Positions 165 to 13,996 of a stretch of 13,996 nucleotides of DNA are shown here, piece after piece. Origin of the DNA: Rhizobacter sp. Lineage in GTDB: Bacteria; Pseudomonadota; Gammaproteobacteria; Burkholderiales; Burkholderiaceae_C. Below the pieces are notes generated by a model. It saw only the letters and a program-made list of their open reading frames with translations. It made no database searches and was not told the DNA's origin. A program made the translations under genes and the position numbers. The first letter of the stretch is position 1, and the number at the start of each line of letters is the position of its first letter. The stretch is taken from positions 1 to 13,996 of the forward strand of contig JANXVK010000598.1 of NCBI GenBank assembly GCA_025351675.1. Direction: 5' to 3'.

Positions 165-542
165 CTACAGCGTCTCGGACGCGTCGAAATCGAGCTCGAC
201 CTTGGCCCCGTTCGGGTCGTAGCAGAACAGCTGCCACGTGCCCGCGCCGACCTGCTGACGCAGGTCGTACTTCGTGCCGCTGGCATCGAAGCGCGCCTTC
301 ACGGCGCGCAGGTCGCGCGCGCTGAAGGCCATGTGGTCGATCACGCCGGCGCGTTGCGTCGGCACCGGGCGGTCGAAGTACATGTGCAGCACCGCCTGCG
401 GTCCGCCGGCGTAGAGCCACGCGCCGGGGAAGCCGAGGTCGGGCCGGTGGCCGACCGTCAGGCCGAGCAGGTCGACGTAGAACGCGAGCGTCTTCGTTTC
501 GTCTTCCGCGATCACGGTGAAGTGGTTCATGCCGAAAATCAT
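165..542 (-). CDS. VOC-family (glyoxalase/bleomycin-resistance/dioxygenase fold) protein
   Basis: A 125-residue cytoplasmic protein of the vicinal-oxygen-chelate superfamily, which includes lyases, isomerases and ring-cleavage dioxygenases that use a divalent metal. The sequence opens with the typical first strand and helix (MNHFTVIAED, then LAFYVDLLGL at about 19-28). It has a second half-module starting at IDHMAF (68-73) and ends in the usual 'DPNGAKVELDF' strand (109-119). H7, H70 and E116 fall where metal ligands usually lie, so a bound metal is plausible. The length is normal for a single-domain member. The ATG at 542 has AGGAG (551-555) eight bases upstream; a second Met at residue 5 is a less favoured start. 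It is the last gene of the leftward cluster, 25 bases after the oxidoreductase gene. The substrate cannot be told from sequence; a role in breaking down or detoxifying a pathway product is inferred from position. Confidence 0.85.
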   Translation of the reverse strand: MIFGMNHFTVIAEDETKTLAFYVDLLGLTVGHRPDLGFPGAWLYAGGPQAVLHMYFDRPVPTQRAGVIDHMAFSARDLRAVKARFDASGTKYDLRQQVGAGTWQLFCYDPNGAKVELDFDASETL

Positions 543-567: not shown

Positions 568-2031
568 TCATGCGGTCAGGATCAACGCGCCGATCGTGCC
601 ACGCGACTCGAGCCGCGCGTGCGCCTGTGCGGCCGCGTCGAGCGTGAAGCGTTCGATCGGCGGCAGTTTCAGCGTGCCGCCGGCGAGCGCGCCCCACACG
701 CGTTCCGCGCGCTCGGCGAGCTGCGCGGGCGTGGCCACGAAGTCGAACACGACCGGGCGCGAAAAGGTCAACGACTTGGCGACGAGCGCGTCCGGCGGCA
801 ACGGTGTCAACGGGCCACTGGCCTGGCCGAGGCTGACCCAGTGGCCGCGGCGCGCGAGCGCGGCGAGGTTCTCGTCGCGGGCCGCGTCGCCGAGGCCGTC
901 GATCACCAGATCGGCGCCGCCGCAGGCGCGCTGCACCGCATCGGCGAAGCGGTAGTCGCTGGTGACGATCACATGCTCGCAGCCATGGGCACGCGCGACG
1001 CGCGCTTTCGCGTCGCTCGACACCGTGCCGAGAACGACCGCGCCGAGCCGCCGCGCCCATGCGCACACGAGCAGACCCACGCCGCCCGCGGCCGCGTGCA
1101 CGAGCACCCGCGTGCCGGGCCCGACGCGACCCAGATCGCGCAGCAAAAAGTCGGCGGTGAGGCCCTTGAGCAGCAGGGCCGCGGCCGTGTCGACCTCGAT
1201 CGCCGCGGGCAGCCGCACGACCCAGTCGGCGGGCACGCTGCGCACCGTGCAATACGCGCCGGGCACCGGCCCGAGGTAGGCCACGCGGTCACCGGGCAGA
1301 AGGCCGCCGACGTTCGGGCCGACATCGAGCACGGTGCCGGCCGCCTCCATGCCGGGCACGCCGGGCAGCGGCAGCAGCGCCGGCATCCAGCCGCGACGCA
1401 GGTAGACGTCGAAGAAGTTGACGCCGATGGCGCGCTGCTGGATGCGCACTTCGCCGTCGCCGGGCGCCGCGGCTTCGGTGGATTCGGCTTGCAGCGCCTC
1501 GGCCTCGCCGTAGCGATGCACCACGACTCTGCGCATCGGCAACGCGAGAGCCGATGGCATCACCGCGCCGCCGCGCGGCTGCAGATCCTCGCCCTTTTGC
1601 AGATGCCGCCGCAGGTTCGCGAAGCCCGCCTCGTAGACGCCTTGGGCGACCATGTCGTGCAGCTCGCGTTCCATGCCGGGCGGTGTCGAGAAGGTCGATT
1701 CCCAGTGCCAGAAGGTGCGGTTGCCGTCGGTCACGGTTTTCAGCGTCACGGTCGAGACGTAGCGCTGCAGCGGCACCGTCGCCTCGACGATGCAGTAGGT
1801 GCTTTTGTGCTCCCGATCCGACAAGGTCAGCAACTGTTCGCGGATGCGGTTGCCGTCTTTCAACGTGAAGCTGCGCACGCAGCCGACCTGGTCGCTGCGT
1901 TCGTCGCCTTCGATGCGGCTGTTGTCGACCACGTCGTGCCACTCGTCGTGGCTGTTGAAGTCGCGCAGTACCGCCCAGACGCGCTCGATCGGCGCGTCGA
2001 TGATGGTCGAGCGGACGACCTTCTGCAGCAT
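568..2031 (-). CDS. SRPBCC domain fused to zeta-crystallin-type NAD(P)H:quinone oxidoreductase
   Basis: A 487-residue two-domain protein. Residues 1 to about 150 are an SRPBCC (START/polyketide-cyclase-like) ligand-binding domain closely resembling the product of the preceding gene, sharing RDFN, EWH, DSRIE/NSRIE, VGC, TDG and EREL positions. Residues from about 158 form a full medium-chain reductase of the quinone oxidoreductase group: GVNFFDVYLRRG (203-214), PGMEAAGTVLDVG (226-238), and the nucleotide-binding AAAGGVG loop (313-319). No catalytic-zinc motif is visible, as expected for this group. The ATG at 2031 starts 2 bases after the upstream stop, with no strong Shine-Dalgarno, so translational coupling is likely. 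An internal ATG at 1560 would give a stand-alone 330-residue reductase, but it lacks a well-placed ribosome site (GAGGA is over 20 bases away). I therefore favour a true fusion. Expected reaction: NAD(P)H-dependent reduction of a quinone or enone; the substrate is unknown. Confidence 0.85.
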   Translation of the reverse strand: MLQKVVRSTIIDAPIERVWAVLRDFNSHDEWHDVVDNSRIEGDERSDQVGCVRSFTLKDGNRIREQLLTLSDREHKSTYCIVEATVPLQRYVSTVTLKTVTDGNRTFWHWESTFSTPPGMERELHDMVAQGVYEAGFANLRRHLQKGEDLQPRGGAVMPSALALPMRRVVVHRYGEAEALQAESTEAAAPGDGEVRIQQRAIGVNFFDVYLRRGWMPALLPLPGVPGMEAAGTVLDVGPNVGGLLPGDRVAYLGPVPGAYCTVRSVPADWVVRLPAAIEVDTAAALLLKGLTADFLLRDLGRVGPGTRVLVHAAAGGVGLLVCAWARRLGAVVLGTVSSDAKARVARAHGCEHVIVTSDYRFADAVQRACGGADLVIDGLGDAARDENLAALARRGHWVSLGQASGPLTPLPPDALVAKSLTFSRPVVFDFVATPAQLAERAERVWGALAGGTLKLPPIERFTLDAAAQAHARLESRGTIGALILTA

Positions 2032-2033
2032 GC

Positions 2034-2474
2034 TCAACGGCGGCCGAAGTGGCGCTTCAATGCATCGAACCCGCTCTGAAAGACGCCACTCCCGATCGAC
2101 TCCGTCAACTCGCGCTCGCGCGCTTCGGGGCAATCGAACTCGGCGCTCCATTCGGCAAAGCAGCGCGCGCCGTCGGTCACCGGCGTCAGCTTCAGGGTCG
2201 CGACATAGTTGGTCACGCCCATCGGGCTCTCCAGAATCTCGTAGCTGCAGCTGTAGTCGTAGTCGGACAGCGCCAGCAGCTTCTCGCGGATCATCGCGCC
2301 GTCGCGCAGATGAAAGTGGCGGATGCAGCCCACGCGGTCACTCGGCTGGCTGTTCTCGATGCGCGAATCGGCGATCGCCGGGTGCCACTCGGGCAGCGCG
2401 TTGAAGTCGCGGATGCGCGCCCAAACGCTGTCGGCGCTGGCGTCGATGACGCTGGAGGCGTAGACATGAACCAT
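2034..2474 (-). CDS. SRPBCC-family (polyketide cyclase/START-like) protein
   Basis: A 146-residue single-domain protein of the SRPBCC superfamily, whose members enclose a hydrophobic ligand in a deep pocket under a long C-terminal helix. Visible hallmarks are the N-terminal strand and helix (SSVIDASADSVWARIRDF, about 7-24), the EWHPAI segment (29-34), VGCIRHF (48-54) and a long amphipathic C-terminal helix (about 118-143). The length is normal. The ATG at 2474 is preceded by AAGGAG (2484-2489), which lies inside the 3' end of the flotillin gene. Its stop is 2 bases before the start of the next gene, which begins with a paralogous domain, so this pair looks like a tandem duplication. It has no signal peptide or membrane segment, so it is cytoplasmic. 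The ligand and any catalytic role are unknown; ligand carrier, cyclase or hydratase are all possible. Confidence 0.85.
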   Translation of the reverse strand: MVHVYASSVIDASADSVWARIRDFNALPEWHPAIADSRIENSQPSDRVGCIRHFHLRDGAMIREKLLALSDYDYSCSYEILESPMGVTNYVATLKLTPVTDGARCFAEWSAEFDCPEARERELTESIGSGVFQSGFDALKRHFGRR

Positions 2475-2480
2475 CGCTGG

Positions 2481-4196
2481 CTACTCCTTCTTCGCGGGCG
2501 ACGAATGCGACGGCGCCGGTGGCAATGCCGCCTGCGCGCCGCTGACGCTGCCGACGAGCCGCTGGATGTCGCCGCCCTCGATGCCGATCTCGCGCAGCAA
2601 CTGGTCGACCAACGGCGCCTGCGCGCGAAAGCGCAACGCCGAGTTGACGATGCTGTCGGAGAAGTTGCTGCCGTGCCCGCCGTCGCCATGGCCGTTGCCG
2701 CCGCCGCTCGAGCCGCCGAGCCCGTCGACCTGCAGGATCTTGATGCCCTCGATCCGCTCCATCGGCTTGACCGATTCGCGGATGATGCCCTCGGCCTTCT
2801 CGACCAGCCGCATCCGCAGGGCCGACATGCGGGCCTCCGGGCTCAGCATGTTGTGCGCCGCGTTCATCAGCTGCAGCCCCTCGGCCTCGATCTCGGCACG
2901 CAGCCGCATCGCCATCGACCTGATTTTGTCCGCGTCGGCATCGGCCTCGGCCTGGGCGCGCACTGCATCGCCACGGTCGACGCTCGCGGCCTTCTCGGCC
3001 TGCGCGGCCGAGGTCAATCGCAGCGCATCGCGCTCGGCGACCTGCGCGGCGCCGATCAGGTCGATCGCCTTCTTGCGCTCGGCCATCTCGACCTCGCGCG
3101 CGGTGAACACCTTCTCTTCGGCCGCGATCGCGAGTGCCCTGGCAATCTCCGCCTCGGCCTGCGCTTCGCTCTGCGCCTTGCTCTCGCGGGCGATCGCGAT
3201 CGAGCGCTGCTGCTCGGCCAGCTCCATTGTCATGCGGCGTTCGATCTCGGCGGCTTGAACCGCGCGCTCCTTGCCGATGCGCTCCTGCTCCAGCGTTTGC
3301 TCCGAGCGGATGCGCGCGGTATCGATCGTCTGCTTGGCGGCGATCTGCGCGCCTTCGGCGGCCTGTTCGCGCTGCGCACGTTCGGTCGCCACTTCAGCGC
3401 GTTGGCGAGCGCGCGCGATCTCGACCTCGCGTTGCTGGTTCAGGCGCGCGTACTCACCCTCGCGGTCGATCTCGAGCGAGAGTTTCTCGGCTTCGAGGTT
3501 CTTGTTGCGAATCGCGATCAGCGTGTCCTGCTCGACGTCGTTGCGCTGCTTCTTGCGGTGCTCGATCTGCTCGGTCAGGCGCGTCAGGCCTTCGGCGTCG
3601 AAGGCGTTGCTCGGGTTGAAGTACTCCATGCCGGTCTGGTCGAGCTGGGTCAGCGAGGCGGCTTCGAGTTCCAGGCCGTTCTTGGTCAGGTCTTCGGCGA
3701 CCGTCTCGCGAACGCGCTTGACGTAGGCGCCGCGCTTCTCGTGCAATTCTTCCATCGTCATCTCGGCGGCGGCGGTGCGCAGCGCGTCGACAAACTTGCC
3801 TTCGACGAGTTCCTTCAGCTGATCCGGCTCCATCGTGCGCAGGCCGAGCGTCTGCGCCGCGTTCGCAACCGAGTCGGGGTTCGCGGCGACGCGCACATAG
3901 AACTCGGCGATCACGTCAACACGCATGCGGTCCTTCGTGATCAGCGCCTTGTCGCGGCCGCGGCTCACTTCGAGCCGCAGCGTGTTCATGTTGACCGGGA
4001 TCACGTCGTGCACGATCGGCAGCACGAACGCGCCGCCGTCGAGCACGACCTTCTGGCCACCCAGGCCGGTGCGCACGAACGCGCGCTCTTTCGAGCTGCG
4101 CAGGTAGAGCCAGTGCATCAGCCACACGCCGATGGCGACGACGATCGCGACGACGATCAGGCCGAGGATAAAACTGCCGAACTGTGAGCCTGACAT
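2481..4196 (-). CDS. Flotillin-like SPFH/band-7 membrane protein (YqiK type)
   Basis: A 571-residue membrane scaffold protein. Residues about 8-30 are one hydrophobic anchor segment, followed by an SPFH/band-7 domain (about 31-215; 'VRTGLGGQKVVLDGGAFVLP' at 41-60 is typical of flotillins). A long Glu/Ala/Arg-rich coiled coil (about 205-480) carries the repeated A-E-A heptads of the family. The C-terminus has a Gly/His-rich stretch (GGSSGGGNGHGDGGHG) and an Ala/Pro/Ser tail. Flotillins oligomerise at the cytoplasmic face of the membrane and organise lipid microdomains. The frame stays open upstream of 4196, but the ATG at 4196 is chosen because a strong AAGGAG lies 6 bases before it and the membrane anchor follows at once. 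Bacterial flotillins usually sit beside an NfeD-like gene; none is seen here. Its place inside a transport and catabolism cluster suggests, by inference, a role in organising the importer or in membrane protection. Confidence 0.9.
   Translation of the reverse strand: MSGSQFGSFILGLIVVAIVVAIGVWLMHWLYLRSSKERAFVRTGLGGQKVVLDGGAFVLPIVHDVIPVNMNTLRLEVSRGRDKALITKDRMRVDVIAEFYVRVAANPDSVANAAQTLGLRTMEPDQLKELVEGKFVDALRTAAAEMTMEELHEKRGAYVKRVRETVAEDLTKNGLELEAASLTQLDQTGMEYFNPSNAFDAEGLTRLTEQIEHRKKQRNDVEQDTLIAIRNKNLEAEKLSLEIDREGEYARLNQQREVEIARARQRAEVATERAQREQAAEGAQIAAKQTIDTARIRSEQTLEQERIGKERAVQAAEIERRMTMELAEQQRSIAIARESKAQSEAQAEAEIARALAIAAEEKVFTAREVEMAERKKAIDLIGAAQVAERDALRLTSAAQAEKAASVDRGDAVRAQAEADADADKIRSMAMRLRAEIEAEGLQLMNAAHNMLSPEARMSALRMRLVEKAEGIIRESVKPMERIEGIKILQVDGLGGSSGGGNGHGDGGHGSNFSDSIVNSALRFRAQAPLVDQLLREIGIEGGDIQRLVGSVSGAQAALPPAPSHSSPAKKE
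2484..2489 (-). promoter_or_regulatory. Ribosome binding site of the SRPBCC gene
   Basis: AAGGAG on the minus strand, 9 bases before the ATG at 2474. It is embedded in the last codons of the flotillin gene, just before its TAG stop (2481-2483). Confidence 0.6.
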
Positions 4197-4201
4197 GGGG
4201 G

Positions 4202-4208
4202 TCTCCTT
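4202..4208 (-). promoter_or_regulatory. Ribosome binding site of the flotillin gene, overlapping the upstream stop
   Basis: The minus strand reads TAAGGAGA: the TAA stop of the TIM-barrel gene (4209-4207) overlaps the AAGGAGA ribosome site. The ATG follows after a short C-rich spacer. This fixes the flotillin start at 4196 and suggests coupled translation of the two genes. Confidence 0.75.
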
Positions 4209-5037
4209 ACCGCTTGATTTGTGTGAAGCGCCGCGTGGTCTCGGTGAGCGCCACTTCGACGGGCAGACGCTCCATCGAACTCGCGCCGTAGAAACCGTGG
4301 CAGGCCGGGCAGTGCGCGAGCACGTGCTGTGCGTTTTCCGGGGTGGCGATCGGGCCGCCATGGCAGAGCACGATAACGTCGGGATTGACCGACTTTGCCG
4401 CCGCGGCCAGAACGTTGATGCGTTCGATGCAGTCGGCGAGCGTCAGCGCTGTTTCAGCGCCGATCGCACCGCCTGTCGTCAGGCCCAGGTGACAGACGAC
4501 GATGTCGGCACCGGCGCCGGCCATCGCGCGTGCTTCGGTCTCGCAGAACACGTACGGCGTGGTCAGCAGATCGAGCGCACGCGCACGCTCGATCAACTCG
4601 ACTTCGAGCCCGTAGCCCATGCCGGTCTCCTCCAGGTTCGCGCGGAACCTGCCGTCGATGAGCCCGACTGTCGGGAAGTTCTGGATGCCCGAGAAGCCGA
4701 GGTCGATCAGGCGTCGCAAAAATTGCTCCGGCATCATGAACGGATCGGTGCCGTTCACGCCCGCCAGCACCGGCGTGTGCTTGACCACCGGCAGCACCTC
4801 GCGCGCCATCTCGCAGACGATCTCGTTCGCGTTGCCGTAGGCCAGCAACCCCGCGAGCGAGCCGCGCCCGGCCATGCGGTAGCGGCCCGAGTTGTAGATG
4901 ACGATCAAGTCGACGCCGCCGGCCTCTTCGCACTTGGCCGACAGGCCGGTGCCGGCGCCGCCGCCGATGATCGGTCGACCGGCGGCGATCTTCGCGCGAA
5001 AGCGGTCGAGCAGGGTGGAGCGTGCGATGCGTGGCAT
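4207..5037 (-). CDS. TIM-barrel protein of the phosphoenolpyruvate hydrolase-like family (Tm-1 partner)
   Basis: A 276-residue cytoplasmic TIM-barrel protein of the 'phosphoenolpyruvate hydrolase family / TIM-barrel signal transduction' group (COG5564 type). Family-like segments are [14 protein letters not shown] (47-60), GVNGTDPF (93-100), [13 protein letters not shown] (117-129), CHLGLTTGG (182-190), CHGGPI (225-230) and [12 protein letters not shown] (248-259). The length is normal for a single barrel. In plants this domain is the C-terminal half of Tm-1-type proteins; here it is a separate gene 23 bases after the gene carrying the Tm-1-like half, so the two probably act together. The annotated name comes from distant similarity to phosphoenolpyruvate-mutase-type barrels; actual activity on phosphoenolpyruvate is not established by the sequence. 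There is no strong Shine-Dalgarno before the ATG at 5037. The family call is firm, the reaction is not. Confidence 0.88.
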
Positions 5038-5060: not shown

Positions 5061-7292
5061 TCAGGCGTGCCGCGCGCTGGCGGCTGGTCGGGCGATCTCG
5101 CGCCAGGCCGCGACCAGCGCGTCGGCGAAGGCGTCGTCGTTGATGTGCAGCGGCAGGCGGATCAGCTTGCGATCGGCGCCGCCGCGAAAGTTTTGCTCGA
5201 TCGCCGCGAACAGCGCGCGGTCGGCCTCGGGGTCGTGGAATGGCTGGCCCGGTTTGTCGATCGCCGAGACGCCACCCTCGGGGATCAGGAAGCGCACCGG
5301 CCCGCGCATCGCATTCAGCTTGGCCGCAAGAAACAAGCCGATCGCGCGGTTCTCGTCGGCGGTAGTCCGCATCAGCGTCACGGTCGGGTTGTGGCGGTAC
5401 AGCTGGCGCGCCTTGAAGCGCTCGGGCACCGTCTGCCAAGCGCCGAAGTTGACCATGTCGAGCGCGCCGCACGAGCCGACGTACGGCAGTGCATGGCGCG
5501 CGAACACATCGAGGCGCGTCGCCCCGGCCGAGAGCGTACCGCCGGCGATCTCGTCGGCGATCTCGGTGGTCGAGACATCGATCGCGCCGATGAGCAGCCC
5601 TGAATCGGCGAGCTTTTCCATCGACTGACCGCCGACGCCGGTGGCGTGGAAGACGAGACAGTCGTAGTCGGCCTCGAGCCGCTTCGTCACCGCCTGCACG
5701 CACGGCGTCGTGACGCCGAACATCGTCAGGCCGAGCGCCGGCTTGGTCGTGTCGGATTCGGGCGCCGGGTGCGCGATCATTCCGGCCAGCGCGTGCGCGG
5801 CGTTCGCGAGCACTTTTTCGCTGATGCGGTTGATGCCCTGGACGTCGGTGACCGAATACATCATGCAGATGTCGCTTGGGCCGACGTAGGGGCGCGTGTC
5901 ACCGCTGGCCATCGTCGAGACCATCACCTTCGGGCAGCCGATGGTCAACGCGCGCATCCCTTGCGTGGCCATCGAGGTGCCGCCCGAGCCGCCGGCGGAG
6001 ATGATGCCGCCGATGTCGCGACGGGTCCGCACGAAGGCCTCGAACGCCATTGCCATCGCCGCGGTCGCGTTGCCGCGGTCGTCGCTGAAGACCGCCGCCT
6101 CGCCCTGCGGGTGATGGTGTGCGACTTCGCGCGGGTGCACGCTCGCGGACGAAGTCTTGCCCGACGTGGAGAGGTCGACCGTGACGACGCGCAAACCGAG
6201 CCGCTCCAGGCACTGGCGGATGAAGAAAAGTTCGCGACCCTTGGTGTCGAACGTGCCGGCGACATAGGCGGCGCGCACGCTGCTGGCGGCGACCGGGAAG
6301 TCGAAGACCCGCGGCGCGGCGGCGGGTGCGGGCGCAGCTGCGGGTGCCGGCGCGGGCGGCGCGCGCAGGATGTCGGTGGCGGGTGCGGCGGTGCCGCCGG
6401 CGTTCCAGCGTGTGAAGCCGCGCACGCTGTGGGGCGCGAGGTCGTCCATCGTCGGTGCGCCCTCGCCGTGCGCGCGGAGCACCGTGAACACCTGGGTCGG
6501 TGTCGGTGCGGCGGCCGCGTCGTTTGGCGCCGGCCCGTCGGCCTCGTCATCGGGCCCGCCCGATCGCACGCCCAGCAACCGTTCCTGCAGTTCGCGGTCG
6601 GCGGCGAGCTGCGCGGCGGGCAGCTCCTGCGCGATGCGGCCGTTCACCATCACGCCGATGCGGTCGGCCACCGTCATCGCGACGCCGAGGTTCTGTTCTA
6701 TCAACAGGACCGAAATCTCGCCCTCGGCCGCGAGGTCGCGAAGCGCTTGCGCGACCTGCTCGACGATCACCGGCGCGAGGCCTTCGGTCGGCTCGTCCAT
6801 CACCAGCAGCTTCGGGTTCAGCAACAGCGCGCGGCCGATCGCGAGCATCTGCTGCTCGCCGCCCGAGAGCTGCGCGCCGCCGTTCGACTTGCGCTCGGCG
6901 AGGCGCGGGAACATCGTGTAGATGCGGTCGATTTCGCGCCGGTTGCGCGCGACCAGCCGCAGTGTCTCGTCGACCGAGAGCGAGGGCCACACGCGCCGGC
7001 CCTGCGGCACGTAGGCGATGCCGCGCCGCGTGATCTCATTCGGCGCGCGGCCGAGAATCTCTTCGCCGAGCAGCCGCACGCTGCCGTGCGCCGGCACCAG
7101 CCCGGTGATCGCGTTGCACAGCGTCGTCTTGCCCATGCCGTTGCGGCCGACGATGCCGAGCACACCGCGGTCGATCGTCAGGTTCACGCCTTGCAGCGCG
7201 TGGGCACGGCCATAAAACACGTCGAGGCCCTCGACTACCAGCATCGGACCGCGGCTCTTCGCCTCGTCGCGATCGCGCGAGAACAACCCCAT
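5061..7292 (-). CDS. Fusion of LivF-type ABC transporter ATPase with Tm-1-like (UPF0261) domain
   Basis: A 743-residue fusion. Residues about 17-243 are a LivF-type ATPase: Walker A GRNGMGKTT (49-57), Q-loop Gln97, signature LSGGEQQ (142-148), Walker B LLVMDEP (162-168), and IEQN (198-201) where the H-loop His is Gln, as is usual in LivF. A low-complexity linker (about 244-340) with an Ala/Pro run follows. Residues about 341-738 are a full Tm-1-like/UPF0261 domain: AYVAGTFDTKGREL (342-355), the Gly-rich ISAGGSGGTS (431-440), VFHATGVGGQSME (547-559). The nucleotide-binding fold and the plant homologue's role in inhibiting tobamovirus replication are known for the Tm-1 family; its role in bacteria is not. 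The ATG at 7292 overlaps the livG stop by one base (TGATG), which suggests translational coupling. The ATPase half should drive the importer encoded just upstream, tethering the Tm-1 half to the inner membrane (inference). No frameshift or stop separates the halves. Confidence 0.9.
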   Translation of the reverse strand: MGLFSRDRDEAKSRGPMLVVEGLDVFYGRAHALQGVNLTIDRGVLGIVGRNGMGKTTLCNAITGLVPAHGSVRLLGEEILGRAPNEITRRGIAYVPQGRRVWPSLSVDETLRLVARNRREIDRIYTMFPRLAERKSNGGAQLSGGEQQMLAIGRALLLNPKLLVMDEPTEGLAPVIVEQVAQALRDLAAEGEISVLLIEQNLGVAMTVADRIGVMVNGRIAQELPAAQLAADRELQERLLGVRSGGPDDEADGPAPNDAAAAPTPTQVFTVLRAHGEGAPTMDDLAPHSVRGFTRWNAGGTAAPATDILRAPPAPAPAAAPAPAAAPRVFDFPVAASSVRAAYVAGTFDTKGRELFFIRQCLERLGLRVVTVDLSTSGKTSSASVHPREVAHHHPQGEAAVFSDDRGNATAAMAMAFEAFVRTRRDIGGIISAGGSGGTSMATQGMRALTIGCPKVMVSTMASGDTRPYVGPSDICMMYSVTDVQGINRISEKVLANAAHALAGMIAHPAPESDTTKPALGLTMFGVTTPCVQAVTKRLEADYDCLVFHATGVGGQSMEKLADSGLLIGAIDVSTTEIADEIAGGTLSAGATRLDVFARHALPYVGSCGALDMVNFGAWQTVPERFKARQLYRHNPTVTLMRTTADENRAIGLFLAAKLNAMRGPVRFLIPEGGVSAIDKPGQPFHDPEADRALFAAIEQNFRGGADRKLIRLPLHINDDAFADALVAAWREIARPAASARHA
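6312..6362 (-). repeat. Ala/Pro low-complexity linker coding repeat
   Basis: This stretch encodes residues 311-327 of the fusion protein, almost only alternating Ala and Pro. It separates the ATPase and Tm-1-like domains and looks like a flexible or extended tether. Length variation between strains would be expected here. Confidence 0.7.
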
Positions 7293-8116
7293 CAGTGCTT
7301 GCTCCCCATGTAGATCGCTTGAACTTGTGCGTCGTTCTCGATCTCGCCGGGTGTGCCGGTGCGCAGCACCCGGCCGTTGTGCATCACCGTCACGCGCTCG
7401 ACCACGCGCAGCGCGATGTCGAGGTCGTGCTCGATCAGCACGAAGCTCATGTGCGCGGGCAGCGAGGTCAGCAGCGCGACGAGCTCGCGGCGCTCAGCCG
7501 GCGAGAGTCCGGCGGCCGGCTCGTCGAACAGGATCAGGCGCGGCGCGCCGGCCAGCGCCATGCCGATCTCGAGCTGGCGCTGCTGGCCGTGCGCGAGGTC
7601 GGCGACGCGCGTGTCGGCGATGTGGGTCAGGCGCGCGCGCTCGAGGAGGTCGTTGGTCGCGGCCGTCGACGCATGGCCCGCCCGCGGCCGCACGAAGCTG
7701 AAGCGTCCGCTGGCGACACCGCGCACCGCGAGAAACAGGTTGTCGCGCACCGTCAGCTCGCGGAACAGCAGCGACGATTGGTAGGTGCGCCGCAATCCCT
7801 TGCGGATGCGCTCGTGCGGCGCCAGTTCGGTGATGTCTTCACCGAAAAAGTGAATGCGGCCCGCGGTCGGCGGGAAGTCGCCGCTGATCGCGTTGAACAG
7901 CGTCGTCTTGCCGGCGCCGTTCGAGCCGAGGATCGCGTACTTCTGGCCGGCGGCAACGTTCAATGTCACGTCGTCGACGGCGCGCAGCGCGCCGAACGCC
8001 CGCGTCACGCCGCTCAGGGTCAGCGCGTCACCGGAGAGCAACTGCCCGCCCGAGTTCGTGCTGGCGACGGCGGCGCCACGCGGCGCCGCCGTTTTGAGCG
8101 AGGTGATCGAGGCCAT
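7292..8116 (-). CDS. livG: ABC transporter ATP-binding protein, LivG type
   Basis: A 274-residue cytoplasmic ATPase of the branched-chain amino-acid/HAAT importer family; together with the LivF-type partner it would power substrate uptake. It shows Walker A GSNGAGKTT (64-72), Q-loop Gln113, signature LAHGQQR (174-180, a variant common in this family), Walker B LILFDEP (194-200) and H-loop His230 (IEHD). The first 30 residues are an Ala/Ser/Gly-rich extension ahead of the ATPase fold (ALTLSGVTRAFG, 31-42). No strong Shine-Dalgarno precedes the ATG at 8116, so a slightly later start is possible. It follows the binding-protein gene by 30 bases and its TGA overlaps the start of the fused ATPase by one base. 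The gene symbol gives the family role; the transported substrate is unknown. Confidence 0.92.
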   Translation of the reverse strand: MASITSLKTAAPRGAAVASTNSGGQLLSGDALTLSGVTRAFGALRAVDDVTLNVAAGQKYAILGSNGAGKTTLFNAISGDFPPTAGRIHFFGEDITELAPHERIRKGLRRTYQSSLLFRELTVRDNLFLAVRGVASGRFSFVRPRAGHASTAATNDLLERARLTHIADTRVADLAHGQQRQLEIGMALAGAPRLILFDEPAAGLSPAERRELVALLTSLPAHMSFVLIEHDLDIALRVVERVTVMHNGRVLRTGTPGEIENDAQVQAIYMGSKH

Positions 8117-8146: not shown

Positions 8147-9400
8147 CTACTTGCGGCAATCTGGCACGTCACGCGTGCCCATGCCCATCTTCTTGAACTC
8201 GGCATCAGAGAGGCCGAGTGTCTGCGAGATGTTCGGCACCGATTTGACAACCTTGTTGTAGAACGAACCGTCGGCCGCTTTCGAGACCTCGGTGATGTAG
8301 GTCGTGCCTACGCCGTTGCGGTTGCCGTCGATCCTCACTTCGCCGGCCGGGCCCTTGAAGTCGGTCTTCTGGAGTGCCGCGCGGTACGCCACCTGGCCGC
8401 CCGAAAGGTCGCCCTTGACGGCGTCGAGCGCATCGAGCGTCGCCTTGGTGTTGATGTAGTAGAGGTAGGCGAAGAGCGACGGGCTCGGGAATCCATCCTT
8501 GAAATTGGCCTTGTAGTCGGCGACGAACTTCTTCCACTCGGGCGTGTCGATCGAGTCGGCCATCGGGCCTGCCGACATCGTGCCGAGCAGTGACTCGCGC
8601 CGCTTTCCCTTGAAGTTGAGCACGGTCTGGTCGACCGTGATCGAGCCGCCGATCATCGGCTTGTCGCCACCGGTCTGCTCGTACTGCGTCAGGAAGTTGA
8701 CGGCGTCGGAGCCGCCGAGCACGACCAGCAGCGCATCCACGTCCTTCGGGATCTTCGCGATCACCGAGGCGTAGTCTTTCGTGCCCAGCGGCACCCAGGC
8801 CTTGTCGAGCACCTTGCCGCCCTTGGCGCAGTAGCTCGCCATGAAGCCCTGCACTTGCGAGTACGGGAAGCCGTAGTCTTCGGCGATCAGGTAGAGCTTC
8901 TTGTAGCCCTTGGCGAGCGCGTGCTCGCCCAAGCCCACCATCCATTGCGCGCCTTCGGTGTTGAAGCGATAGAAGTTCGCGGCCGGGTCGGCCAGCGTCG
9001 CACCCTGCGCGCCCGACGAGCCGTTGACGAAGGTGACGTTCGGCTGGGTCTTGGCGTAGTTCTTGACCGCGATGCCTTCGTCGCCCGAAAGCGGGCCGAT
9101 CATGATCTGGACCTTGTCCTGCTCGACCGCCTTGCGGGTCGAGCTGACGGCCTTGTCGGGCGTGGCATCGGACGAGACCTTGATGAACTCGATCTTCTTG
9201 CCGCCGGCCATGCCGTTGTGCTGTTTGAGCGCCAGATCAGCGCCGCGCATGCCGTCTTGCCCGGGCGCCGCGAACGGGCCCTCGAGGGAGGCCAGCAGGC
9301 CGATCTTCAACGTCTCCTGTGCCTGCGCGAACCCGACCACCGCGAACGCTGCAGCGGCGCCGATGAGGCTGCGCGTGAATACCTTGCCGTACTTGTTCAT
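8147..9400 (-). CDS. Periplasmic substrate-binding protein of a Liv/HAAT-type ABC importer
   Basis: A 417-residue extracytoplasmic binding protein (periplasmic-binding-protein type 1 fold, LivK/AmiC-like) that captures the substrate and delivers it to the two permeases. A signal peptide is clear: a basic N-region (MNKYGKVFTR), a hydrophobic Ala/Val-rich core and an FAQA-type cleavage site near residue 27. The mature protein begins with the family's LKIGLLASLEGPFA, then GADLALKQHNG, a hinge-region 'IMIGPLSGDEGIA' segment, and the central LYLIAEDYGFPYSQVQGF. No lipobox Cys is present, so it should be soluble in the periplasm. The ATG at 9400 overlaps the preceding permease stop (ATGA) and has AGGAA (9407-9411) six bases upstream. 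Ligand class in this family ranges over amino acids, amides, urea and aromatic acids; the sequence does not settle it. Confidence 0.92.
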   Translation of the reverse strand: MNKYGKVFTRSLIGAAAAFAVVGFAQAQETLKIGLLASLEGPFAAPGQDGMRGADLALKQHNGMAGGKKIEFIKVSSDATPDKAVSSTRKAVEQDKVQIMIGPLSGDEGIAVKNYAKTQPNVTFVNGSSGAQGATLADPAANFYRFNTEGAQWMVGLGEHALAKGYKKLYLIAEDYGFPYSQVQGFMASYCAKGGKVLDKAWVPLGTKDYASVIAKIPKDVDALLVVLGGSDAVNFLTQYEQTGGDKPMIGGSITVDQTVLNFKGKRRESLLGTMSAGPMADSIDTPEWKKFVADYKANFKDGFPSPSLFAYLYYINTKATLDALDAVKGDLSGGQVAYRAALQKTDFKGPAGEVRIDGNRNGVGTTYITEVSKAADGSFYNKVVKSVPNISQTLGLSDAEFKKMGMGTRDVPDCRK

Positions 9401-10581
9401 GTCTCGTTCCTGCTCTTGGTTGATGAATGCGGTCTGTGCCGCGGTTGAGTGACCTTGTTCGACGCGAGGCGCAGGCGCAGGCGCAGCTTCTGCCAGAGAC
9501 CCAGCAGCCCGTCGGGAGAGAAGAGGACGATGGCGAGGAAGACGCCGCCGATCAAGAGATTGAAGCGTTCGCGGTCGACCAGATCGATCGCGAAGTTCTG
9601 CAACAGCACGAACACGATCGCGCCGATGAACGCGCCGATCGGGTGCCGCATGCCGCCGAGCACAGCGATGATCAGGATGTTGATCATCGCGCCGGTACCC
9701 ACGGTGCCGGGCGAGATGCGGCCGTTGTACCAGACCATCAGCACGCCGCCGACCGCGGCCAGAAAGCCGGTGACCGCATACGCGGCGACGCGGTGCGCGG
9801 TGACGTTGAAGCCGAGCGCCTGCATCCGCCGCGGGTTGTCGCGGATGCCCTGGAGGGCGACGCCGAACGGTGCGCGGATCAGGTGCTTCACGAAAAAATA
9901 GCCGCCCGCCGCGCACGCGAGCACGAGAAAGTAGAACGCCATCGGCTGCGCGAAATCGATGTCGAACACGGTCGGCGCAGCGATCTTGCTGAAGCCCTGG
10001 AAGCCGTTGAACAGCGTGTAGTTCTGCTGCGCGAGGTAGAAGAACGCGACGCCGACCGCAAGTGTGATCATGATCGTGTAGATGCCCTCGGTGCGGACCG
10101 AGAGCCAGCCGATCGCGGCGGCGAAAACGGTCGCGAGCAGCAGCGCGAACACGATTGCCAGCCACCACGGCCAACCCAGGCTGATCGCGGCATTGCTGCT
10201 CGTGCCGAAGATCGCGAGCAGGTAGGCGGCGAAGCCCGCGACCGTCATTTGCGCGAGCGAGACCATGCCGCCGTAGCCGCCGAGGAAGGTGAGCGAGAGC
10301 GCGATCAGCCCGAGCGCGAGCGACTGCGCGCCGATCTGGAAGGTGAAGAACGGCGTCGCGAAGAACGGGTAGGCGAGCACGAACGCGGCAACGATCGCGT
10401 GGCGCCAGCGCAGCGCGCGGAGCTGGGTCATGACCCAGGTCCACGGCCGGGTCGAGGGCCTCGGCGCGGCATCGGCCGGGTGCTGTGGCAGTGCCAGGCA
10501 GCCGCTCCCGCGCGCATCGCGTGCCGCCGTCGCGGCCGCCGCCGACGAATTCATCGCGCGCCGCCACCGCGCCGCGCTCAT
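9397..10581 (-). CDS. livM: ABC transporter permease, LivM type
   Basis: A 394-residue inner-membrane permease of the HAAT/branched-chain amino-acid importer family. Several hydrophobic segments are visible (about 62-80, 86-102, 109-126, 139-160, 168-184, 214-231, 264-284, 297-310, 315-333, 341-355). The LivM signature region FLGGYGGMVSLAQMTVAGFAAY (99-120) and the cytoplasmic coupling loop LIRAPFGVALQGIRDNPRRMQALGFN (234-259) are present, the latter contacting the ATPases. The ATG at 10581 makes an ATGA overlap with livH. It gives an unusual Ala/Arg-rich N-terminal tail of about 60 residues before the first membrane segment; Met51 (10431) would give a more typical N-terminus but lacks a ribosome site. 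The C-terminus ends in a basic tail with an RLRLRLRL run. The stop overlaps the binding-protein start. Confidence 0.9.
   Translation of the reverse strand: MSAARWRRAMNSSAAAATAARDARGSGCLALPQHPADAAPRPSTRPWTWVMTQLRALRWRHAIVAAFVLAYPFFATPFFTFQIGAQSLALGLIALSLTFLGGYGGMVSLAQMTVAGFAAYLLAIFGTSSNAAISLGWPWWLAIVFALLLATVFAAAIGWLSVRTEGIYTIMITLAVGVAFFYLAQQNYTLFNGFQGFSKIAAPTVFDIDFAQPMAFYFLVLACAAGGYFFVKHLIRAPFGVALQGIRDNPRRMQALGFNVTAHRVAAYAVTGFLAAVGGVLMVWYNGRISPGTVGTGAMINILIIAVLGGMRHPIGAFIGAIVFVLLQNFAIDLVDRERFNLLIGGVFLAIVLFSPDGLLGLWQKLRLRLRLASNKVTQPRHRPHSSTKSRNET
9407..9411 (-). promoter_or_regulatory. Ribosome binding site of the binding-protein gene
   Basis: AGGAA on the minus strand, six bases before the ATG at 9400, inside the 3' end of the permease gene. 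It supports the start that gives a clean signal peptide; the same frame stays open far upstream without a coding reason. Confidence 0.6.
9467..9486 (+). repeat. Short hexamer repeat in the livM 3' end
   Basis: AGGCGC is repeated just over three times in tandem. In the coding strand this makes the alternating Leu-Arg run near the C-terminus of the LivM permease. It is a possible slippage site but shifts by whole codons. Confidence 0.5.
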
Positions 10582-11525
10582 GTGCTCTTGCCCATCAGCC
10601 CGCGCGGCTTGAACGCGAGCGCGACGACCATGATCACGAAGGTGAACACGACGCTGTAGGTCGGTGCGTAGGCCAGCCCGAACTGTTCGGCCAGGCCGAT
10701 CAGCAGCGCGCCGATCGCCGCGCCGACGACGCTGCCCATGCCACCCACGATCACGACGACCAGCGACGCAAGCAGGTAGCGCGTGTCTTCGCCCGGAGAG
10801 ATCGACAGCGCAGTGCCGCCGACCACCCCGGCCAGACCGGCGAGGCCTGCGCCGATCGCGAAGGTCAGCGCGAACACGAGCTGGACGTTGACGCCCGAGG
10901 CGGCCAGCATGCCGCGGTCATCGACGCCGGCGCGGATCATCATGCCGATGCGCGTGCGCGCCAGCAGCAGCCACAAACCGACGCCGATCACGATCGCAGC
11001 GAGCAGGACGAACAGCCGATAAGTCGGAAACTTGGCCACCAGCGGCAGTACCGTCGAGCCGTAGATCCACGATGGCGGGTCGAAGGTGTAGATCTCGGCG
11101 CCCCAGATCCAAAGCATGATGTCGGCGAGCACGATCGACAGGCCGATCGTCACCAGTGTCTGCCGCAGGTCCTGCCCCTGCATGTGGCGGAACACCAGCA
11201 ACTGCAGGATCAGACCGAGGATCGCCGACGCGAGAAAGCCCGCGATCACCGCGAGCACCCACGAACCGGTGTGCTCGCCGACGAACCAGCCGACATACGC
11301 GCCGAACAGGTACAGCGAGCCGTGCGCGAGGTTGACGTTGCGCATCAACCCGAACACGAGCGTGAACCCGCTCGCGACGAGGAAGTAGAGCGATGCGAGT
11401 GTGAGCCCGTTCAGCAGAGTCTTGAAGAACAGCGGGGGGTTGTCGGGGATCGCCCACGCGGCGAACACGACGACCGGGCCGCCGAACAGCAGCCACAGCG
11501 CCCACTGCTTGCGCGTCAACCTCAT
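10578..11525 (-). CDS. livH: ABC transporter permease, LivH type
   Basis: A 315-residue inner-membrane permease, partner of LivM in the importer. It begins with an N-terminal hydrophobic segment (8-26) and shows the family's NGLTLASLYFLVASGFTLVFG (39-59) and NLAHGSLYLFGAYVGW (65-80) segments. More membrane helices follow (about 89-112, 124-142, 170-188, 215-238, 252-280, 290-305). The ARTRIGMMIRAGVDDRGMLAASG loop (189-211) is the likely ATPase contact. The length is normal, slightly long at the N-terminus. The ATG at 11525 overlaps the TGA of the amidohydrolase gene (ATGA), and its own stop overlaps the livM start in the same way. There is no separate Shine-Dalgarno, so translation probably depends on re-initiation. 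The coupling to an amidohydrolase gene suggests that transport and hydrolysis serve the same compound (inference). Confidence 0.92.
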   Translation of the reverse strand: MRLTRKQWALWLLFGGPVVVFAAWAIPDNPPLFFKTLLNGLTLASLYFLVASGFTLVFGLMRNVNLAHGSLYLFGAYVGWFVGEHTGSWVLAVIAGFLASAILGLILQLLVFRHMQGQDLRQTLVTIGLSIVLADIMLWIWGAEIYTFDPPSWIYGSTVLPLVAKFPTYRLFVLLAAIVIGVGLWLLLARTRIGMMIRAGVDDRGMLAASGVNVQLVFALTFAIGAGLAGLAGVVGGTALSISPGEDTRYLLASLVVVIVGGMGSVVGAAIGALLIGLAEQFGLAYAPTYSVVFTFVIMVVALAFKPRGLMGKST

Positions 11526-12805
11526 GCGGCGCGGCCCCAAGCGCGTTGTGATGCGATGTCGGGCGCCTTGACGAACACGCCGTCTTTCATCACCGCAAGC
11601 AGCCGTTTCGGGTCGCGCAGAATCGCCAGGTTCGCGAGCGGGTCGCCGTCGACCAGCAGCAGGTCGGCAAGGTAGCCGTCTTTGACGACCCCGAGCTCGT
11701 CGGGCTTCATCATGATCTGCCCGCCGTACAGCGTGGTCGAGCGGATCGCCTCCATGGGTGTGAAGCCGAGGTACTTGACGAAGAACTCGAGATCGCGCGC
11801 GTTCTGGCAGTGCGGCGTAAACGCGAAACCGTAGTCGCCGCCGGGCAGCACGCGGATGCCGCGCTTGTGCATCTTCGAGAGCGATTCGAGTGCGGCGTCC
11901 CACTCGGTTTGGTAGCCCATCTCGACAGCCATCGCGTTGGTGATGCCGAATGGCTCGGCCTCGTGCAGCATCGCGTACAGGATCGCGATGCCCGGCGCGA
12001 CAAACACGCGGTCTTTCGCGGCCTCGAGCATGTCGAGCGCCTCGTTGTCGACGAAGCTGGCGTGGTAGATCAGGTCGATGCCGTGGCGCAGCGCCTGCTT
12101 CACGCTCTCGGACGAGCGCGCGTGCGCGATGCCGCGCTTGCCGCGCATCTTCACTTCGCGCATCGCCGCGGCCACTTCCTCGTCGAGCATCCAGGTCGTC
12201 TCCGCCGGCGACTGCGGCGTGAAGTTGTCGCCCGACAGGTTGACCTTGATCGAATCGACGCCGTACTTGAGAAACAGGCGAACCGCTTTGCGCATTTCGT
12301 CGGCGCCGCTGATGTTCACGCCGAAGCTGAACTCGGGGAAGGGCAGGTGCGGCAGCGTCTCGTCGCCCAGCGCGCCGAGCACCGTGATCTCCTGGCTCGC
12401 CGCGAGGTAGCGCGGGCCCGGGATCTGGCCGGCGTTGATTGCGTTGCGGATCACCACGTCGAGGCGCGGTTTCGCGCAGGCGGCGCCGACGCACGAGGTG
12501 AAGCCGGCTTCGAGGTAGCGCTTCGCAACCTTCGCGCACCACAGCACGTGCTCTTCGAGCGGCATGGTCTGGATCGCGGAGAGCGTTGCCGCATCGTTCC
12601 ACGAGAAGTGGGTGTGGGCCTCGCACATGCCGGGCATCAGCGTCGCGCCGGCGCCGTCGATCACGGTCGCATTGCCGCTGCCGATCGGGGCTGTGCTGCG
12701 GCCGACCTGGCGGATGCGGTTGCCCTGCACGAGCACGCTGCCGCTGTACGGGTTCTGGCCCGTGCCGTCGAGGATCCGGACGTTGGTGAAAAGGATGTCG
12801 GTCAT
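11522..12805 (-). CDS. Metal-dependent amidohydrolase (imidazolonepropionase/prolidase-like group)
   Basis: A 427-residue cytoplasmic amidohydrolase (COG1228-like). Expected metal-site residues are all visible: H64 and H66 in EAHTHFSW, a Lys candidate for carboxylation (K187 in DSIKVNLSG), H228 (IAHAR), H248 (IYHASF) and D324 (PGGDYGF). The N-terminal beta-sandwich (ILFTNVRILDGTG, 4-16) and C-terminal segment (YLADLLLVDGDPLANL, 378-393) complete the composite-domain architecture. Related enzymes hydrolyse cyclic amides or N-acyl/Xaa-Pro peptides; the substrate here is not known. The ATG at 12805 is chosen for its GAGGAG seven bases upstream; a TTG at 12820 is in frame but less likely. No signal peptide is visible. 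It is a clear paralogue of the preceding gene, sharing long blocks such as KPRLDVVIRNAIN, and its stop overlaps livH. Confidence 0.92.
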   Translation of the reverse strand: MTDILFTNVRILDGTGQNPYSGSVLVQGNRIRQVGRSTAPIGSGNATVIDGAGATLMPGMCEAHTHFSWNDAATLSAIQTMPLEEHVLWCAKVAKRYLEAGFTSCVGAACAKPRLDVVIRNAINAGQIPGPRYLAASQEITVLGALGDETLPHLPFPEFSFGVNISGADEMRKAVRLFLKYGVDSIKVNLSGDNFTPQSPAETTWMLDEEVAAAMREVKMRGKRGIAHARSSESVKQALRHGIDLIYHASFVDNEALDMLEAAKDRVFVAPGIAILYAMLHEAEPFGITNAMAVEMGYQTEWDAALESLSKMHKRGIRVLPGGDYGFAFTPHCQNARDLEFFVKYLGFTPMEAIRSTTLYGGQIMMKPDELGVVKDGYLADLLLVDGDPLANLAILRDPKRLLAVMKDGVFVKAPDIASQRAWGRAA

Positions 12806-12812
12806 CGTCGTG

Positions 12813-12818
12813 CTCCTC
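12813..12818 (-). promoter_or_regulatory. Ribosome binding site overlapping the stop of the upstream amidohydrolase
   Basis: The minus strand reads TGAGGAG: the stop of the first amidohydrolase (12819-12817) overlaps GAGGAG, which lies seven bases before the ATG at 12805. This sets the start of the second amidohydrolase and implies that both paralogues are translated together. Confidence 0.7.
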
Positions 12819-13996
12819 AAGCGGCCCAGCGCGTGGTCGTGCGTGCGTTGCGCACGGCAGGCGCGCGATGGAACTCGCCGTCCTTCATCACTGCGAGGAT
12901 GCGCGCCTTGTCCTGCAGCACCGTGATGTCGGCGAGCGGGTCGCCGTCGATCAGCAGGATGTCGGCGAAGCAGCCTTCACGGATATAGCCGATCGTCTTG
13001 CCCATCTTCATCATCGGCCCGCCCCAGGCGGTGGCCGAGAGCAGCGCTTCCATCGTGCTCATGCCGACGTACTTGACGAAATATTCGAGGTCGCGTGCGT
13101 TCGTGCCGTGCGGCGTCCACGCGAAGCCGTAGTCGCCGCCGGGCAGGATGCGAACGCCGCGCTTGCGCAGCGCGCGCATGCTTTCGAGCGCCGCGTCGAG
13201 CTCGCGGTGGTAGCCCATCTTCTTCGTGACCTCGGGCGTCAGGCCCCATTCGCTCGCGTGGTGGCAGGTGTTGATCAGCCACGCCAAGCCCGGCGCGATG
13301 AAGTGCTCGGTCTTGTGGGCTTCGAGCAGGTCGAGCGCTTCGGTGTCGGTGAAACTCGCGTGATAGATGACCTCGATGCCCTGCTTGACGCATTGCTTGA
13401 CGGCCCAGCACGAACGCGCGTGCGCGGCGACGCGCTTGCCCCAGGCCTTGGCCTCTTCGACGCAGACGCGGATCTCTTCCTCGGTGAACTGGCTCATCTC
13501 GCTCGGCATGCCGGTGATCGACTCGCCCGAGAGGTTGATCTTCACGGAATCGACGCCCCACTTGGCCATCATGCGGACACAGCGCCGCATCTCTTCGGCG
13601 CCGCGGACGATCGCGCCGAACGCGAACTCGGCTTGCGGCAGATGCGGCTGGGTCGAGTCGCCCAGTCCGCCCGGCACCGTGATCTCCTGGCCGGCGGCGA
13701 GGTAGCGCGGACCTTGAATCGTGCCGTCGTTGATCGCGTTGCGGATCACGACATCGAGCCGCGGCTTGGCGGCGGCGGCGCCGACGCAACTCGTCCAGCC
13801 CATGTCGAGGTACTTCTTCGCGACCTCGGCGCACCACAGGATGTGCTCTTCGGGTGGCATGCGCTGGATCGCGTCGAGGCTCGGCTGGTCGTTCCACGAA
13901 AAGTGGGTGTGCGCCTCGACCAGGCCCGGCATGAGGAAGGCACCGGCGCCGTCGACGACGCGGGCACCGCCGACGGGTGCCGCCCGCATGCCGTAG
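12817..13996 (-). CDS. Metal-dependent amidohydrolase, N-terminus beyond the window
   Basis: A partial gene: the frame is open to the right edge (codons for Tyr and Gly precede the first visible Met at 13989). By comparison with its paralogue, about 35-45 N-terminal residues are missing, so the Met at 13989 is not the true start. The catalytic core is complete. Counted from the visible Met these are H27 and H29 (EAHTHFSW), K150 (DSVKINLSGE), H190 (AAHARS), H210 (IYHASF) and D286 (PGGDYGF). The visible N-terminal part lacks the opening beta strands, which must lie outside. It shares the same fold family and probably related chemistry with the second amidohydrolase, but residues around the pocket differ (for example INTCHHASEWGL versus LYAMLHEAEPFGI), so the two may prefer different substrates or steps. 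The next gene starts 11 bases after its stop. Confidence 0.92.
   Translation of the reverse strand, partial: YGMRAAPVGGARVVDGAGAFLMPGLVEAHTHFSWNDQPSLDAIQRMPPEEHILWCAEVAKKYLDMGWTSCVGAAAAKPRLDVVIRNAINDGTIQGPRYLAAGQEITVPGGLGDSTQPHLPQAEFAFGAIVRGAEEMRRCVRMMAKWGVDSVKINLSGESITGMPSEMSQFTEEEIRVCVEEAKAWGKRVAAHARSCWAVKQCVKQGIEVIYHASFTDTEALDLLEAHKTEHFIAPGLAWLINTCHHASEWGLTPEVTKKMGYHRELDAALESMRALRKRGVRILPGGDYGFAWTPHGTNARDLEYFVKYVGMSTMEALLSATAWGGPMMKMGKTIGYIREGCFADILLIDGDPLADITVLQDKARILAVMKDGEFHRAPAVRNARTTTRWAA

Follow-up and report, generated by a model that had tools for sequence, protein, structure and literature searches.

In a 13,996-nucleotide contig of Rhizobacter sp. (JANXVK010000598.1, assembly GCA_025351675.1; the window hereafter), one minus-strand gene joins a LivF-type ATPase of an ATP-binding cassette (ABC) importer to a UPF0261 domain, which makes up part of Tm-1, a virus-resistance protein of tomato, and also occurs in bacteria, archaea, and fungi (available part of PMC5028733). 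This LivF-UPF0261 fusion is genuine, present in many bacteria of soil and water, and conserved across genera, and its UPF0261 half retains the positions conserved in non-fused relatives. Pfam describes UPF0261 as uncharacterised; gene order and a solved relative (PDB 9mpy) now give it a testable biochemical role, that of a small-molecule kinase. We tentatively propose, at somewhat less than even chances, that the fused gene supplies a branched-chain/aromatic-type (LivFGHM) importer with a LivF ATPase bearing a tethered MarK-like kinase, which phosphorylates the entering substrate. The parts of the fusion are as follows:

5061..7292, minus strand: LivF-UPF0261 fusion (open reading frame; Pfam ABC_tran, UPF0261, and UPF0261_C)
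6567..7244, minus strand: LivF-type ATPase half, residues 17-242 (Pfam; best solved relative 1ji0)
6285..6566, minus strand: Ala/Pro-rich linker, residues 243-336 (94 amino acids), predicted disordered
5085..6284, minus strand: UPF0261/Tm-1-like half, residues 337-736, putative small-molecule kinase

The list of open reading frames gives a single open frame from 7292 to 5061, encoding 743 amino acids; it begins with an ATG at 7292 that overlaps the LivG stop codon, and its sole stop is the end of the frame. A sequence-only reading of this DNA had described one uninterrupted frame joining a LivF-type ATPase to this domain at these coordinates, and it was right, except that it left the strand unstated: read on the plus strand, 5061-7292 is interrupted by a stop. 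The complete ATPase motifs, complete UPF0261 domain, and Ala/Pro linker that it described were recovered as well. In Pfam, ABC_tran spans residues 33-169, UPF0261 residues 342-508, and UPF0261_C residues 517-733, and each match exceeds its curated cut-off; PF06792 and PF23189 score 205 and 295.3 bits against a gathering score of 27, which assigns this half to the UPF0261/Tm-1-like domain, and it also exceeds the NCBIfam cut-offs of NF002673 and NF002674. The LivF half carries a conserved Walker A motif (GRNGMGKTT), signature (LSGGEQQ), and Walker B motif (LLVMDEP), and together with the neighbouring LivG, LivH, LivM, and binding protein genes these mark it as a LivF-type ATPase of the high-affinity branched-chain amino acid (HAAT) importers. 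It misses the NCBIfam equivalog cut-offs of UrtE (TIGR03410, 211.8 versus 285.8) and of Escherichia coli LivF (NF008626, 155.3 versus 441), so we call it LivF-type rather than UrtE or E. coli LivF itself.

The full-length structure model has a mean predicted local distance difference test (pLDDT) score of 76.0 and a predicted template modelling (pTM) score of 0.41, both halves being mostly confident and the linker disordered, with a pLDDT below 50 throughout except at residue 302. Such a model allows tethering and displays no contact between the halves. Modelled alone, the UPF0261 half reaches a pLDDT of 82.7 and a pTM of 0.64, and overlaying it whole on Tm-1 and 9mpy gives root-mean-square deviations of 7 to 9, which leaves the relative placement of its two domains tentative.

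To judge the fusion beyond the window, 140 neighbourhood loci were compared, 96 fused and 44 with a standalone UPF0261. All 96 fused loci, which encode 90 distinct proteins, are in frame without a stop between the halves, ruling out a sequencing or assembly error that joined two genes. The sequence-only reading had named two findings that would overturn it, a missed stop or frameshift in the linker and homologues encoded as two genes; neither turned up, as no separate LivF gene directly precedes UPF0261 in any of the 44 standalone loci or in one further locus, L228. Close relatives with two genes split at the junction were not found either, genome G003 being undecidable as its contig stops 63 bases upstream. 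Eighty of the 140 loci (L009-L088) were chosen for likeness to the window protein, being the best 80 of at least 561 relatives, and the fused share among them is therefore biased. Fairer samples came from a family-model search of genomes, with the window genome (G000) counted in. Among 397 phylum genomes, 50 contain some UPF0261 and at least 15 a verified fusion; for the order these figures are 22 and 9 out of 300 genomes, and for relatives 8 and 5 out of 60. The three non-fused members of those eight are G003, at its contig end, and G058 and G007, both standalone, with G007 holding a TetR-UPF0261-TBST gene set without LivF.

A protein search found both ABC_tran and UPF0261 in 119 of the 120 matches listed, out of at least 7998 candidates; the other protein, P0075 (595 amino acids), lacks ABC_tran, and P0001 is the window protein itself or nearly so. 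Among the relatives listed, the carriers are mostly Burkholderiales, plus Reyranella, Azospirillum, and a few others, and the tree described below also holds carriers from other families of the phylum. Similar fusions are thus present in databases, as had been suspected, both as halves and as the fused architecture; record names include "UPF0261 family/ABC-type branched-subunit amino acid transport system", and 7 of the 120 are called "ABC transporter permease", a name that our reading would correct. The remark that the joined protein is not described also holds among the open-licence papers listed, where we found none describing an ABC-UPF0261 fusion; the words "ABC" and "transporter" occur 0 times in the available part of PMC5028733. 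What is new here is the proposed role for the Tm-1 half, the architecture itself being already in databases.

A careful tree built from 87 UPF0261 domains places all 59 fused rows in one clade (bootstrap 99, Shimodaira-Hasegawa-like approximate likelihood ratio 95) together with two standalone proteins, L144 and L228, which are nested within it with no adjoining LivF; L228 comes from the genus of the window. This tree requires three changes between fused and standalone forms, and a quick tree two; in both, the 42 loci L009-L050 are represented by the 10 with numbers divisible by four, and the careful tree omits 19 divergent standalone rows of the quick one. One gain followed by two later losses is most simply the history behind the three changes, and repeated independent fusion was set aside in its favor. 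The approximately unbiased test rejected a clade restricted to fused rows (p 0.0017), as one would expect had L144 and L228 lost the LivF half later, which is how they are best read, although long branches (L144) make this less sure. The standalone proteins fall into two large groups, A and B, and some divergent rows; group A clusters with the fusion and, in the tree, with Tm-1.

The case for a kinase starts from a fold search, which retrieved PDB 9mpy, the UPF0261 protein Saro_1862 of Novosphingobium aromaticivorans with acetovanillone bound and the closest solved bacterial relative of the UPF0261 half. In locus L157, whose UPF0261 protein is 69% identical to 9mpy, a divergently oriented IclR regulator gene is followed by genes for UPF0261, a biotin carrier, a biotin carboxylase, a carboxyltransferase, and a HAD phosphatase. 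The next locus tag in N. aromaticivorans, Saro_1863, is an IclR regulator too, according to the available part of PMC12352068. A survey that matched 15 genomes, and which included the regions of 12 of them and of G302 and left out G783 and G765, located close Saro_1862-type genes in five genomes (L157 and L216-L219; 66-100% identical to L157). Biotin carrier and biotin carboxylase genes directly follow UPF0261 in all five, and the carboxyltransferase and HAD phosphatase genes follow in four, the fifth (L217) meeting its contig end. No dikinase match above 70 bits was present in the five loci. The Hpe pathway runs from a kinase (HpeHI) through a carboxylase (HpeCBA) to a phosphatase (HpeD) (available part of PMC9618137), and the Saro_1862-type gene order equals this kinase-carboxylase-phosphatase order, UPF0261 taking the place of the kinase. 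According to a 2026 paper, a closely similar pathway in N. aromaticivorans begins with a single-component kinase, MarK (available part of PMC13101465), and Saro_1862 is probably MarK. We infer, with good support, that the Saro_1862-type UPF0261 is an ATP-dependent kinase starting acetovanillone breakdown; the five clusters are apparently a single-component-kinase version of the Hpe acetovanillone pathway. The "unknown bacterial function" that the sequence-only reading gave to the Tm-1-like protein is thereby narrowed, through gene order and the acetovanillone structure, to that of a putative aromatic-compound kinase.

The fused proteins have kept the conserved residues of this family. Ignoring the fused rows and excluding L197 from the count, we applied a threshold of 95% conservation to 42 non-fused rows (26 of group A, 14 of group B, 9mpy, and L157), which 46 positions reach. 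The window retains all 46, each of the 59 fused rows between 43 and 46, and Tm-1 42; at the 90% level, the window retains 58 of 61 (lost: T450, I487, A570). Just 31 of the 46 are retained by the divergent UPF0261 proteins of L167 and L178, with E577, H634, N635, and N718 changed in both. One of these is encoded in a phenol operon with PpsA-like, PpsB-like, CBS, and UbiX genes (L178:4393-12840), where a phenylphosphate carboxylase beta protein exceeds the TIGR02724 cut-off; the other lies beside a two-component aromatic-type dikinase (L167:8275-14051). Judged from the residues, the changes would fit proteins that lost catalysis in a setting with a different kinase for the reaction (n = 2).

The other genes of the window, all on the same strand, are listed below:

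165..542, minus strand: VOC/glyoxalase family protein (open reading frame, profile match)
568..2031, minus strand: SRPBCC domain joined to a zinc-type/quinone oxidoreductase, a second fusion
2034..2474, minus strand: SRPBCC protein (Polyketide_cyc2)
2481..4196, minus strand: flotillin (Flot and Band_7; ATG at MSGSQF, placed by eye)
4207..5037, minus strand: TIM-barrel PEP_hydrolase-like protein (PF09370, "TBST"; Pfam; PDB 2p10)
7292..8116, minus strand: LivG-type importer ATPase (open reading frame, Pfam, NCBIfam)
8147..9400, minus strand: periplasmic binding protein (Peripla_BP_6; ATG at MNKYGK, placed by eye)
9397..10581, minus strand: LivM-type permease (open reading frame, Pfam, NCBIfam)
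10578..11525, minus strand: LivH-type permease (open reading frame, Pfam, NCBIfam)
11522..12820, minus strand: amidohydrolase 2 (mechanical open reading frame; ATG at 12805 is the likelier start)
12817..13989, minus strand: amidohydrolase 1 (5' end probably cut by the window edge, as several relatives have about 430 amino acids)

The physical joining of the two halves within an importer operon, as first read from the sequence, is borne out by the neighbourhoods of other fused genes. In the 53 fused loci with full flanks (56 before removal of three duplicates), LivH, LivM, the binding protein, LivG, flotillin, and both SRPBCC queries were each found in 53, TBST in 51, both amidohydrolases in 47, the oxidoreductase in 45, and VOC in 26; the SRPBCC queries cross-match each other, as do the amidohydrolase queries, so that "both" is no proof of two genes everywhere. 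A second LivF-like gene was absent from 51 of these 53 full-length neighbourhoods and present in L067 and L081, making the fusion normally the sole LivF found in its operon. A Variovorax paradoxus VAI-C plasmid has the same gene order, preceded by fumarylacetoacetate hydrolase and alpha/beta hydrolase genes. Among the 44 standalone loci, an SRPBCC gene occurs in 6, TBST in 26, and a same-strand flotillin in none.

Several of these neighbours bear on what is imported. The best solved relatives of the binding protein are 4zpj, 4ey3, and 4evq, of which the last two presumably come from work on plant-derived aromatic acids; we do not name the substrate from them. Amidohydrolase 2 resembles arginine carboxypeptidases, Xaa-Pro dipeptidase, and ochratoxinase, and both amidohydrolases score below the NCBIfam cut-offs, so no substrate is named for them. 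Together, the amidohydrolase, SRPBCC-oxidoreductase, and VOC genes, and the fumarylacetoacetate hydrolase gene of Variovorax, suggest a cyclic or aromatic substrate.

In the mechanism that we propose, the UPF0261 half would phosphorylate a phenol or enol hydroxyl on the compound brought in by LivHM. Phosphorylation at the inner face of the membrane would trap the compound in the cell, and the flexible linker, 70-134 amino acids long across the fused proteins, could let the kinase reach the transporter exit while LivF pairs with LivG. The neighbouring TBST might then act on the phosphorylated product, as UPF0261 and this TIM barrel are paired elsewhere and form one protein in plant Tm-1. The fusion thus predicts that a single protein ties phosphorylation to import, which, if true, would link uptake to the first step of breakdown; that the domain modifies the substrate as it enters was among the meanings first considered, and it stands as a possible one. 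A wider version of this proposal is doubtful: an ABC importer whose ATPase incorporates the substrate kinase, coupling uptake and phosphorylation on one polypeptide within a flotillin-containing membrane assembly, and, by extension, a plant Tm-1 whose ancestor was a small-molecule kinase of bacteria, partnered by a TIM-barrel enzyme that acts on the kinase product.

A number of observations weigh against a tethered kinase. We know of no kinase activity for the window protein or any fused protein, and the identity of Saro_1862 with MarK is our own inference. The fused UPF0261 half is 34% identical to 9mpy, and neither a biotin-dependent carboxylase nor a HAD phosphatase, the neighbours of a MarK-type gene, was found among the twelve scanned window proteins, so the substrate and the next step would have to differ from those of the Saro_1862 type. 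The L167 and L178 genes lie beside a complete two-component dikinase, and UPF0261 therefore need not always be the kinase; residue conservation alone, moreover, does not place an active site. The full-length model, at a pTM of 0.41, has no confident packing between the halves, and residues 461-485 of the UPF0261 half form a weak loop with a pLDDT below 50. The absence of the LivF half in L144 and L228 indicates that tethering can be given up, and no TBST was seen in operons L186 and L188.

In a rival reading, the fusion would just secure co-production at a 1:1 stoichiometry, the UPF0261 half being an ordinary cytoplasmic enzyme that gains nothing from proximity to the importer. The untethered UPF0261-TBST pair of the 26 standalone loci fits this view, as do the 15 cases in which it lies beside a divergent sugar-type ABC importer gene, and so do the loss of LivF in two lineages and the great length, predicted disorder, and low conservation of the linker (45% identical to that of the window, versus 79% and 77% for the two halves). 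However, an R-W-N-like motif, defined by a loose pattern, recurs in the linker of 85 of 91 proteins, and the joined form has been retained across beta- and alphaproteobacterial genomes, always (53 of 53) with LivG, LivH, LivM, and the binding protein. We consider co-production alone rather unlikely, though it deserves serious attention.

C-terminal regulatory domains are known on ABC ATPases such as MalK and MetN, and the UPF0261 half could similarly sense the substrate (or ATP) and regulate the importer ATPase, or anchor TBST or flotillin, without any chemistry. The aromatic ligand bound by UPF0261 in 9mpy and the crystallisation of tomato Tm-1 in helicase complexes (PDB titles) would suit such a role. 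Yet the 46 of 46 conserved positions kept by the window exceed what a ligand-sensing remnant needs, and TBST, part of the same protein in plants, travels with UPF0261; we consider a sensor improbable. Least probable, and a distant candidate, is that UPF0261 serves aromatic breakdown in some other ATP-dependent or accessory capacity, for example as a helper of PpsAB/HpeHI-type dikinases, with MarK being another gene: the L178 and L167 loci agree with it, but the Saro_1862-type loci have UPF0261 directly before the carboxylase genes with no dikinase match, and the L167 and L178 proteins look as if they had given up a chemistry of their own (n = 2).

The putative importer-tethered kinase differs from each known system that it resembles. 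Saro_1862 is standalone, without an importer, and its close orthologues precede biotin-carboxylase and phosphatase genes rather than TBST. The ATP-dependent phosphorylation of a phenol as a first step is shared, as proposed, with HpeHI and AcvAB, whereas these are two-component ATP-grasp/swivel dikinases with Pfam domains other than UPF0261 and no attached importer (available parts of PMC9618137 and PMC12167813); the fusion has no Pfam match to PPDK_N or PEP-utilizers domains and is not a dikinase of the HpeHI/PpsAB kind. The co-evolution of UPF0261 and TBST and their fusion in plants have been described (available part of PMC5028733): plant Tm-1 joins UPF0261 to TBST, while the window joins it to LivF and encodes TBST as a separate gene (4207-5037), so the single polypeptide of the plant Tm-1 is not seen here. 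An ordinary LivF is likewise a complete ATPase encoded with LivG, LivH, LivM, and a binding protein, and the fusion adds about 500 residues of linker and UPF0261. Phosphoenolpyruvate-dependent sugar phosphotransferase systems modify their substrate at the membrane during uptake; here, if our reading is right, ABC-driven import would be combined with a tethered second, ATP-using phosphorylation, an ABC-type counterpart of vectorial phosphorylation for which no homology is claimed.

Other UPF0261 loci and fused operons showed further variation. TBST is present in all 26 group-A loci, of which 15 are those with the sugar-type importer gene, and the regulators seen in this group are of the TetR type (L149, Sinorhizobium meliloti pSymA) or GntR type (Rhizobium johnstonii pRL9). 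In 7 of the 14 group-B rows, an aldehyde dehydrogenase gene and a TctA-like gene both lie upstream on the same strand, the two queries having been taken from one of those seven rows. L153 and L155 carry a standalone UPF0261-TBST-SRPBCC set directly after genes for two permeases and a double ABC ATPase; this transporter looks like a nucleoside/BMP-type one, a third importer type linked to the module. A UPF0261 gene of Brucella is reported to distinguish vaccine strain S19 from virulent strains and to have been hit in an earlier screen of mutants (available part of PMC2364660).

The flotillins of L181-L185 and L187 have ~940-973 amino acids, and that of L182 (4509-7409) contains long stretches rich in arginine and glutamate. 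Variovorax L200 shares the SRPBCC-oxidoreductase fusion found at 568-2031 of the window. Downstream of the alphaproteobacterial fused operon of L182, genes for a molybdenum hydroxylase of the CO dehydrogenase family, with FAD and 2Fe-2S subunits (L182:2306-3610), occupy the place that the oxidoreductase holds in other operons.

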